A stretch of 64,000 nucleotides of DNA from Microbacteriaceae bacterium (lineage in GTDB: Bacteria; Actinomycetota; Actinomycetes; Actinomycetales; Microbacteriaceae), in contig JAIYCT010000003.1 of assembly GCA_027487865.1 (NCBI GenBank), positions 124,001 through 188,000 on the forward strand. The letters run 5' to 3'. This document shows positions 60,359 through 64,000 of this stretch, piece by piece (position 1 is the first letter of the stretch; every line of letters begins with the position of its first letter). Below the pieces are notes generated by a model, which made no database searches, was not told the DNA's origin, and worked only from the letters and a program-made list of their open reading frames with translations. Position numbers and translations under genes: made by a program.

Positions 60359-61324
60359 CTAGGTTGTTTTATTACCCCGAAATAGCCCCCACCAAAAACC
60401 TGTGCCCCAGGCATAGTGCATGGTAGGTAGCACAACCAGCAGCCAAAGCTTCTGGCGCTCGGTGATCACTTTGGCGCTTCCAGCCAAGATCGCAATAGCT
60501 ATTAGATAGATCCAAAGCGGGAACCAGAACAGTGTGCCAAGCACCAGTAGTGGCGGAATCCAGTAGCGCACCGAAGAACCGGCTGGGTTCTCTCGCGTCA
60601 GCGCTCCGCGCCAAACACCGGTCTTGAAAAACTGCTTGGCAAGTGACTCCCAGTCACTTCTGGGGTAGTAGCTCACCTGAAGCCTTGGATCAAACCAGAC
60701 AATCAGCCCCGCTTTCCTCAGTCTTTGGTTTAGCTCCCAGTCCTGCCCACGAACCCAGGCTTCAGAGAAGCCACCAACCTGCTCGATGGCAGCTTTTCTA
60801 AAGACGCCCAGGTAAACAGTGTCGGCGGGACCCGCCTCACCGCCAACATGGAAAGAGCCACCGCCGAGACCAACTTTGTTGTTATAGCCGTAGGCAACTG
60901 CCGACTGGAAATCGTTCTTGCCCTTGGCAACCATCATTCCGCCGACATTGGCTGCGCCAGTTTCATTCAAAAGCTTTACCGCAAGAGCTGCGTAACCTTC
61001 GGAGAGTTCGGAGTGGGCATCGACTCGAAGGATGACCTCGTACTTAGCCTTTGCAATCGCAAGATTTAGCGAGATAGAGGTAAGGCCGGGAGAGTGAACC
61101 AATTGCAATTTGGCACCGTATTTGCGCTTCAGCTTCTGCGCTACCTCGTCGGTCTTGTCCTTGGATGGACCAAGCGCCACAACTAATTCCATCTCACCGG
61201 GCACCACCTGGCTAAAAACAGACTCAACAGCGGTGGCTAGGTAGGCCTCTTCGTTCAGCACCGGCATCACGAAGCTGATGTTTTTTAGAGCCTTAGCCAT
61301 TGTGGACGTTTCTACCAAGCGCAA
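60359..61324 (-). CDS. Family 2 glycosyltransferase, succinoglycan-like, membrane-anchored
   Basis: FVMPVLNEEAYLATAVESVFSQ, ILRVDAHSEL..., C-terminal hydrophobic segments. Confidence 0.88.
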   Translation of the reverse strand: MRLVETSTMAKALKNISFVMPVLNEEAYLATAVESVFSQVVPGEMELVVALGPSKDKTDEVAQKLKRKYGAKLQLVHSPGLTSISLNLAIAKAKYEVILRVDAHSELSEGYAALAVKLLNETGAANVGGMMVAKGKNDFQSAVAYGYNNKVGLGGGSFHVGGEAGPADTVYLGVFRKAAIEQVGGFSEAWVRGQDWELNQRLRKAGLIVWFDPRLQVSYYPRSDWESLAKQFFKTGVWRGALTRENPAGSSVRYWIPPLLVLGTLFWFPLWIYLIAIAILAGSAKVITERQKLWLLVVLPTMHYAWGTGFWWGLFRGNKTT

Positions 61325-62609
61325 TTACGCGCCAGCCGGTCGCCTGCCACTTGGCTACATCCAAAACATTTCGACCATCGATGATGGTCTTAGTTGCGAC
61401 AACCCTGCCAAATTCGACCGGGTCAATCTCGCGATACTGCTTCCACTCTGTGCCAAGAATTACTAGGTCTGCACCGGTGGCGGCTTTGAGTAAATCTTCT
61501 TCGCGATACAGCTCAGGGCAGCGGGTGGCAAGCGGGGTTAGCGACACCGGATCGTGCACGGTCACCTTTGCACCATGGGCAGTTAGTCGCTGAGAGATCT
61601 CCAGGGCAGGAGAGTCTCTTAGATCATCACTGTCCGGCTTGAAGGAGATGCCAAGCATGGTGACTGCTTTGCCAGTTAGTGATCCAAGTTCTGATTTGGC
61701 AAGTTCGACAACTTTGTCACGCCTACGCAGATTCACAGCGTCGACATCTTTTAGGAAGTCAACGGCAGAACCAACACCCAGCTCTTCAGCTCTTGCCACA
61801 AAGCCACGAATGTCCTTCGGAAGGCAACCGCCACCAAAGCCAATGCCCGTTCTTAGGAACTTGTTTCCAATGCGCTCGTCATAACCAATCGCCCTGGCAA
61901 GAGCCACCGCGTCCGCCCCAGAGACCTCAGCAACCTCGGCCATGGCATTGATAAAGCTGATCTTGGTTGCCAAAAACGCGTTAGCGGCAACCTTCACTAA
62001 CTCAGCGGTTGGGACATCGAGCTCCAGGAACGGAGTGCCGGTGGCAAGGATTCGTGCGTAGACCTCTCGCAGCACATCTACCGAGTGCTGACTCCAGGTG
62101 CCAACCACAATGCGGTCAGGCTTTAGTGAGTCCTCTAGGGCGGTGCCTTCCCTTAGGAACTCCGGGTTCCAAGCCAGGTGAACATCAAAGCCGGCAATCT
62201 CAGTCATCGCAGTCTTGAGCGTTGCAGCGGTTCCAACCGGAACGGTGGACTTTCCTGCAACCACCGCGGTTGGCTTGATCCATCTCGCAAGCTCTTTGGC
62301 TGCGGCAATTACATAAGTGGTGTCGGCAGCATCGCTACCTTTGGTTTGCGGAGTGCCAACGCAGATGAAGTGGAGGTCGGCGCTCGCTGAATTCTCATTG
62401 TGCTCGTGCTGGAATGTGAGTTTTCCACTCGAGATTGCCTTTGGCAAAGCAGCATCTAGGCCTGGCTCGTGGAATGGCAATATGCCGGCTGCGAGCGATT
62501 CAAGTTTCTTGGAATCTGGCTCAATACCTATGACTTCGTGGCCCAATTCAGCCATGGCAACAGCGTGTGTTGCACCCAGATATCCAAGACCAATAACAGT
62601 TACCTTCAC
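61293..62609 (-). CDS. ugd: UDP-glucose 6-dehydrogenase
   Basis: MKVTVIGLGYLGATHAVAMAELGHEV, NKFLRTGIGFGGGCLPKDIRG. Confidence 0.94.
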   Translation of the reverse strand: MKVTVIGLGYLGATHAVAMAELGHEVIGIEPDSKKLESLAAGILPFHEPGLDAALPKAISSGKLTFQHEHNENSASADLHFICVGTPQTKGSDAADTTYVIAAAKELARWIKPTAVVAGKSTVPVGTAATLKTAMTEIAGFDVHLAWNPEFLREGTALEDSLKPDRIVVGTWSQHSVDVLREVYARILATGTPFLELDVPTAELVKVAANAFLATKISFINAMAEVAEVSGADAVALARAIGYDERIGNKFLRTGIGFGGGCLPKDIRGFVARAEELGVGSAVDFLKDVDAVNLRRRDKVVELAKSELGSLTGKAVTMLGISFKPDSDDLRDSPALEISQRLTAHGAKVTVHDPVSLTPLATRCPELYREEDLLKAATGADLVILGTEWKQYREIDPVEFGRVVATKTIIDGRNVLDVAKWQATGWRVIALGRNVHNG

Positions 62610-62686
62610 AAGCCCAGAGTTTATCTGTCAAACCTAAACTCGCTGGGACCGTAACGCCTATTGACAGCCTGCGTATATTGGAGGTG

Positions 62687-64000
62687 ATGGCACACGAACC
62701 GAACGAAGATCTTTATCAAGAAGATCCACTCGAGCAGCTCTTGGATCAAGAGACTGACGAGGAGTTTGGCCTGCCTGAATTTAAAGAGCACTTTGCTGAC
62801 TCTTTGACCCCTGCCGTCCTAAAAGACTGGACCGCGCAAGACTTCGCGAGCATCTATGTTCGCTTCCGCCCACACCTTGAGCGTCACGCTCGTCGCTTCC
62901 TAACCAACCGCTCCCAGGTTGAAGAGGTTGTCCAGGATGCCTTCCTATATCTAATGACCACGCTTCCGGAGCTGGACTCCGAGGTTGGCGTACTGCGCTT
63001 TTTGAAGTGGAAGACCAGGCTTCTGGCCCTGGACGTGATTCGTGCCAACTCCAGAGCTAGCTTTGCTCCTATTGATGACCAGCCAGAGTTTGCAGCGAAC
63101 CTGCCTGAGATGAGCGACTCGCTTCAGCAGGCAGACGATGCAGCCATCGTGAGCTTGGCACTTGCAAAGCTTCAACCGCGTCAGCGCGAAGCCTTGATTG
63201 CCACCTTGTATGAGGAGAAGAGCGCTGAGGTTGTAGCCGCTCAGATGAACCTCTCCGACAACGCCTTCCGTCAGCTGTTGTTCCGCGCTCGATCTGCCTT
63301 CAAGAAGGCTTTGGTCGGAGAAGCGGAAACCGCAGGCAAGACGGTTTCACAGATTCTTTCCATCGCAGCCCGCAAGGCAGCTGCCGAAAGCGGCAAGTAC
63401 ATCTCGGCTGCCGGTGCATTCCTACTAGTTCTAGCAATCGCGATTGGCGTGGTTCCGAACCTCTCCAACGATGTTGTGAGCGAACAGGTTGCTCTGCCAG
63501 AACCAACCATCACCTCACCTGAAAACCCTGTGGCTGAGACCGAGACCGGAGTTCTACCAACTGAAGAGCCAGGTCCAGGTGCTGAGGTAGTCGAGACTCA
63601 AGATCTCGCAGTGGCGACAAACACTCAGTTGAATATCGCTCCTGCAAGCAACATCACTCCAAAGCCAAGACCTGCGCCAACCGCCGAAGCGGTTGCTCAG
63701 AAGCAGGCTGAGAATGCAATGCGCAACGCATTGAGCGTGACCACTGTGAAGATGCTTAGCCGCGAAGGTCAGGTAAGTGCTGACGCAACAGTCAGCAACG
63801 CGAACCAGGGAACCGTCACGCTGGCTGGCTCAAACGGCCTGAAGGCAATCATTTCCTACGACCTAGCCAGCACCCGCGGTGTTAGCGGTGCTTGGATCTC
63901 ATTTGATGTTTCTGGAACCACCTTCGTGGCTGGTACCAAGGTGGATCACGCTGAGAAGACCGTGAACTCAGATGGCTCAGTAACCCTTACCTACCTCGCC
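62687..64000 (+). CDS. Sigma-70-family (ECF-like) protein with TM segment and long extracytoplasmic tail (3' end outside the window)
   Basis: Open from ATG 62687 (GGAGG upstream) to the window end, so absent from the ORF track. Region 2-like YVRFRPHLERHARRFLTNRSQVEEVVQDAFLYLMTTLPEL...FLKWKTRLLALDVIRANSR; region 4-like KLQPRQREALIATLYEEKSAEVVAAQMNLSDNAFRQLLFRARSAFKKAL; then TM YISAAGAFLLVLAIAIGVVPNL and a Pro/Thr/Glu-rich stretch. Confidence 0.82.
   Translation, partial: MAHEPNEDLYQEDPLEQLLDQETDEEFGLPEFKEHFADSLTPAVLKDWTAQDFASIYVRFRPHLERHARRFLTNRSQVEEVVQDAFLYLMTTLPELDSEVGVLRFLKWKTRLLALDVIRANSRASFAPIDDQPEFAANLPEMSDSLQQADDAAIVSLALAKLQPRQREALIATLYEEKSAEVVAAQMNLSDNAFRQLLFRARSAFKKALVGEAETAGKTVSQILSIAARKAAAESGKYISAAGAFLLVLAIAIGVVPNLSNDVVSEQVALPEPTITSPENPVAETETGVLPTEEPGPGAEVVETQDLAVATNTQLNIAPASNITPKPRPAPTAEAVAQKQAENAMRNALSVTTVKMLSREGQVSADATVSNANQGTVTLAGSNGLKAIISYDLASTRGVSGAWISFDVSGTTFVAGTKVDHAEKTVNSDGSVTLTYLA

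Follow-up and report, generated by a model that had tools for sequence, protein, structure and literature searches.

Can a sigma factor that is itself a membrane protein link the bacterial surface directly to transcription, and which genes would it control? The question is raised by the end of a 64,000-nucleotide stretch of a Microbacteriaceae genome (contig JAIYCT010000003.1, positions 124,001 to 188,000; hereafter the window). There, a sequence-only reading had described sigma region 2- and 4-like sequences followed in one frame by a transmembrane (TM) segment, a Pro/Glu/Thr-rich linker and a beta-rich domain, a composition confirmed with Pfam, hydropathy and AlphaFold2. The frame starts with an ATG at 62687 and is open as far as the window end. 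Its C-terminus had been placed beyond the window, and reading on in the assembly located the stop at window-equivalent 64153, which yields a single frame of 488 codons. The gene and the parts of its product, here named TM-sigma, are:

62687..64000 (+), with the stop at window-equivalent 64153: gene for the membrane-anchored ECF sigma factor, 488 aa, uninterrupted frame
62687..62818 (+): acidic stretch at the N-terminus (EDPLEQLLDQETDEEFG), retained in Aquiluna and in most Rhodoluna
62855..63055 (+): sigma-70 region 2 (PF04542, residues 57-123, E 5e-9, above the curated cut-off)
63149..63295 (+): sigma-70 region 4 (PF08281, residues 155-203, E 3e-9, above the curated cut-off; fold match to solved ECF sigma region 4)
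63320..63397 (+): juxtamembrane helix with L224, S225, A227, A228, R229 and K230 invariant
63398..63457 (+): single TM helix (hydropathy and charge; at the same location in 23 of 23 homologues)
63458..63676 (+): extracytoplasmic disordered linker rich in Pro, Glu and Thr (pLDDT below 50)
63677..64000 (+), reaching 64150 beyond the window: first part of the beta-rich ectodomain (AlphaFold2 pLDDT 94 and pTM 0.85 when modelled alone)

A frameshift or assembly error joining two genes, named at the outset as what could undo the fusion, was ruled out, and its probability is practically negligible: numerous assemblies, obtained independently, from two genera carry the fusion, and another family has a diverged version of it. 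TM-sigma is present in 19 of 23 Aquiluna genomes, including all 14 with a completeness of 90% or more, and in six sampled genomes of the sister genus Rhodoluna; its frame is disrupted in G006 only. The second objection, that relatives might lack the TM segment, fails as well, all 23 aligned homologues carrying it in the same position. TM-sigma is a conserved single-gene membrane-anchored sigma factor with an extracytoplasmic domain and not an artefact. In the rest of the family, outside Aquiluna and Rhodoluna, nothing comparable was found, and ordinary ECF sigma factors match weakly there. The diverged form was recovered in a class-level profile search from a second small-genome family (f28, probably the Nanopelagicales, acI), where 34 of 60 genomes encode it, every single-contig genome of the sample included.

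Regions 2 and 4 without region 3 identify TM-sigma as an ECF sigma factor, and all 23 members agree in this respect (Pfam). The generic NCBIfam ECF model TIGR02937 matches with 66.6 bits (cut-off 42.9), none of the listed NCBIfam equivalog models reaches its cut-off, and Pfam yields nothing above cut-off on TM-sigma except sigma regions 2 and 4. Fold matches of the sigma part are to solved ECF sigma factors. The TM helix (residues about 238-257) is the single strong hydrophobic segment, with a Kyte-Doolittle value of 2.44 against 1.38 for the next-best stretch. It is flanked by three Lys/Arg on the sigma side and by none on the other, and the sigma part is therefore predicted as cytosolic, the topology being judged from hydropathy and charge only.

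In the AlphaFold2 model, residues 232-326 are disordered and residues 331-488 form the beta ectodomain. This domain had no fold match in the PDB at E<=0.001 (the best match, E 0.006 with a TM-score of 0.2, is not meaningful) and no curated match in Pfam; BACON_2 and DUF5643 matched one or two members weakly, below cut-off. A profile match over 48 residues leads to PDB 6g6o (Ika8; E 2e-4). Mean pairwise identity is 0.73 for sigma regions 2 and 4, 0.66 for the juxtamembrane helix, 0.47 for the TM helix, 0.22 for the linker and 0.25 for the ectodomain; judged by these alignments, the sigma part is conserved and the part outside is fast-changing. At the N-terminus, the acidic motif EDPLExLLDEESDEEFG is kept in Aquiluna and Rhodoluna and absent from f28; it could be a candidate autoinhibitory or DNA-mimicking element.

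By taking ECF sigma factors to be normally soluble, the sequence-only reading overlooked an established class. Fusions of a sigma factor with membrane segments are represented by the actinobacterial groups ECF48, ECF52 and ECF53, which bear a zinc-finger anti-sigma part, and by IutY of Pseudomonas, which bears a FecR-type part (PMC8999054). Like TM-sigma, ECF52 (SCO4117), ECF48 and ECF53 are actinobacterial and combine an ECF sigma factor with a TM segment, a Pro-rich linker and an extracytoplasmic domain, and for all of them autoregulation and proteolytic release are suspected. TM-sigma might hence be an ECF52-type sigma/anti-sigma fusion whose anti-sigma part is now unrecognisable: the order of sigma, TM, Pro-rich linker and extracytoplasmic domain is the same, it occurs in Actinobacteria, and SCO4117 of Streptomyces coelicolor is likewise reported to affect its own gene (PMC5826349). 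This origin is very unlikely given the domain content of TM-sigma. A zinc-finger anti-sigma (ZAS) part was looked for after region 4 and is absent, no anti-sigma Pfam match occurs among the 23 members, all full-length members have 0-1 Cys in the entire protein, and only about 26 residues separate sigma region 4 from the TM helix. Nor was a carbohydrate-binding domain found in the C-terminal ectodomain with Pfam or among PDB folds (E<=0.001), where a novel binding domain is possible. TM-sigma further differs from ECF52 in its one TM segment, its promoter motif and its tie to an S-layer-like gene.

IutY of Pseudomonas putida (ECF243) also unites a cytosolic sigma part, a TM segment and an extracytoplasmic part in one protein and is the model for RIP activation by a site-2 protease. 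However, IutY includes a FecR-like anti-sigma domain and is partnered by a TonB-dependent receptor; TM-sigma has neither, and no FecR match was obtained in the 23 members. Sigma factors with SnoaL/TPR extensions resemble TM-sigma in carrying the regulatory part in-chain without a separate anti-sigma factor, but their extensions are cytosolic, unlike the ectodomain of TM-sigma. ToxR/CadC-type one-component regulators share the arrangement of DNA-directed domain, single TM segment and sensing ectodomain; they are winged-helix activators, whereas TM-sigma is a sigma factor. Set apart by its domain content as predicted from sequence, TM-sigma is not filed under the ECF52 or IutY types, with which it shares the layout and probably the mode of action. 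The literature searched yielded no relevant account of a membrane-bound sigma factor from Aquiluna, Rhodoluna or Planktophila, nor of one tied to an S-layer, most subscription papers lying outside the coverage.

What such a protein would control was approached through its surroundings:

61293..62609 (-): UDP-glucose/GDP-mannose dehydrogenase family gene, divergent, first of a glycosyltransferase cluster; order kept in seven Aquiluna genomes
62650..62677 (+): predicted promoter of ECF type for the sigma gene, CGTAAC-N16-CGTATA (exact-pattern scan)
64194..64220 in window-equivalent numbering: predicted promoter of the S-layer-like gene
64325 onward in window-equivalent numbering (L090:16325-18718): S-layer-like gene

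In most Aquiluna and Rhodoluna genomes the S-layer-like gene comes next after the sigma gene on the same strand, often followed by a GAF-LuxR regulator and a second S-layer-like copy. Its products are Thr/Ala/Val-rich proteins of 800-1000 aa that have a signal peptide, contain 15-19% Thr and 15-22% Ala and lack Cys. They are called S-layer-like from composition only, since S-layer proteins have these traits; no known Pfam domain was found above cut-off in those of Aquiluna and Rhodoluna. The family was not found in 11 small-genome relatives without TM-sigma. The final ~90 residues of the S-layer-like protein are found again as the C-terminal end of numerous further secreted proteins of the same genomes, with 8-10 matches in some (other secreted proteins in G002, G007 and G017), and the recurrence suggests a common surface-attachment domain without Pfam entry. 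In several Aquiluna and Rhodoluna genomes, the GAF-LuxR type regulator (L090:18778-19542, -) is flanked by an S-layer-like gene on either side, and TGTCCGGACA palindromes in or near the S-layer promoters could be its candidate sites.

Upstream regions of the sigma gene that otherwise diverge have the element CGTAAY-N16-CGTATA in common. With AAY at -35, a spacer of 16 nt and CGT/CGC at -10, its layout is that of an ECF promoter. Exact matches amount to 12 sites, one in each of 12 of the 17 genomes scanned (two genera) and all 5' of the sigma gene, counts to be read with the facts that the motif was first spotted in these very upstream regions and that the genomes are not independent; the control pattern, read backwards, gave 0-2 matches per genome. 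The motif is absent 5' of the sigma gene in G002 and G007. In Aquiluna 9 nt separate the end of the -10 element from the ATG, and the mRNA is therefore probably leaderless or nearly so; the leader of Rhodoluna is longer.

A variant of the element, CGTAAY-N16-CGYTA, occurs at 16 sites in 12 genomes, with one or two per genome. Eleven of them, in as many genomes, lie 5' of the S-layer-like gene, one precedes an envelope-cluster gene (G202) and four are apparently due to chance. The two promoter classes share the spacer of 16 nt and differ in the -10 element, which is CGYTA at the S-layer promoter and CGTATA at the sigma gene's own promoter. The S-layer-like gene of G002 has CGTAAC-N16-CGTTA in its upstream region. 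The best control for the S-layer promoter motif is G017, in which some 80 kb lie between the sigma gene and the S-layer-like gene, and the latter still has the motif 133 bp upstream. The envelope-cluster gene of G202 is the same gene that has one-mismatch sites in G105 and G159. In the latter, a Rhodoluna, an insertion (L082, 4196-4823, -) with a Phd/VapC-like toxin-antitoxin pair and genes for secreted proteins separates the sigma gene from the envelope gene with the second promoter site. One-mismatch sites elsewhere in G000 lie within or at unrelated genes, vary between genomes and were treated as chance.

Each genome encodes a principal sigma factor, one SigR-type ECF sigma factor and TM-sigma, with a fourth sigma factor in some, and the motif is kept in genomes without the fourth. 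The CGTAAY motif is likely read by TM-sigma, as far as its distribution tells. Alternatively, the SigR-type or the principal sigma factor reads these promoters, and TM-sigma is merely one regulated gene, perhaps with another regulon. This is quite unlikely, although at least one more ECF sigma factor is present per genome and G013 shows no second site at up to one mismatch. SigR-type sigma factors recognise GGAAT-N18-GTT and not CGTAAY. In addition, f28 has an element of its own, CGCKACA-N15-CGTAG, as expected under autoregulation; of 12 genomes, 10 have it once 5' of the TM-sigma gene, and a single stray site turned up across the entire set.

In f28, the gene after TM-sigma encodes an S-layer-like secreted protein (MSTKT...), and a membrane protein resembling a polymerase comes next; two of the three f28 neighbourhoods read also contain, further along, genes for a nucleotide-sugar dehydrogenase and an epimerase. 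The secreted protein differs from the S-layer-like protein of Aquiluna and Rhodoluna and has a similar composition. The TM-sigma promoter motif was not found upstream of its gene, and an operon with TM-sigma is likelier.

With TM-sigma as the reader of the motif, the predicted regulon, which is new here, consists of its own gene and the S-layer-like gene. Judged from the promoter sites, autoregulation is very likely and control of the S-layer-like gene quite likely. The promoter motif and the S-layer-like gene, both outside the span of the sequence-only reading, make the likely function specific. In the subclade G013, G014, G018 and G019, TM-sigma and its own promoter are kept and no full-length S-layer-like gene was found; the S-layer therefore cannot be the sole output of TM-sigma.

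On balance, we consider it probable that TM-sigma unites sensor, membrane anchor and ECF sigma factor in one protein, which monitors the condition of the cell surface and controls an S-layer-like coat. Its ectodomain would read the envelope, for example unassembled surface protein or exposed cell wall, and the tether would limit sigma activity. Upon a signal, site-1 and site-2 (Rip1/RseP-type) proteases may cut the protein and free the sigma part. TM-sigma is predicted from the promoters to activate its own gene, as a positive feedback, and the S-layer-like gene via the CGTAAY-N16-CG elements; in Rhodoluna, the envelope-cluster gene would be a third target. The release step, suggested by analogy, has about an even chance; it is plausible because a site-2 protease (PF02163) is encoded once per genome and because IutY is activated by proteolysis (PMC5411451).

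The main rival to proteolytic release is action while tethered: as in ToxR/CadC-like one-component regulators, the holoenzyme would form at the membrane and the ectodomain would modulate it without cleavage. Conservation of the juxtamembrane helix comes close to that of the sigma domains, and the helix was modelled, with low confidence there, as continuous with the TM helix; the lack of a zinc-finger anti-sigma region leaves no obvious inhibitor to remove. Nevertheless, IutY, activated by proteolysis, is the only characterised membrane sigma fusion, an RNA polymerase with a membrane-fixed sigma factor is an unproven mode, and the site-2 protease, though such proteases are nearly universal, also speaks for cleavage. 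Action while tethered is possible but unlikely.

Small-genome planktonic actinobacteria have very few regulators. If the proposed sensing of the surface by TM-sigma is true, half of their ECF signalling would be one protein that links the surface coat to transcription, a concrete entry to the envelope-level handling of grazing, phage attack and osmotic change. The pathway would be among the simplest sigma-based transmembrane pathways, with sensor, anchor and sigma factor in one chain and no anti-sigma factor, and the predicted promoters make the circuit directly testable. More tentatively, an anti-sigma-free membrane sigma factor, tethered or cleaved, may form a closed feedback circuit with the surface layer that is common to two streamlined planktonic actinobacterial lineages, constitutes one of the two or three alternative sigma pathways available to them and employs an ectodomain fold unseen in solved structures.

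In a tree of the sigma domains, the TM-sigmas form one clade (support 96/96) apart from the soluble ECF sigma factors of the family, a grouping that carries a long-branch warning. The class-level search also recovered a diverged TM-sigma in two genomes of f20, a large-genome, GC-rich family. The sigma gene of a third f20 member, G320 (L176, 3440-4255, +), is without a TM segment and ends right after sigma region 4; a secreted surface protein still comes next.
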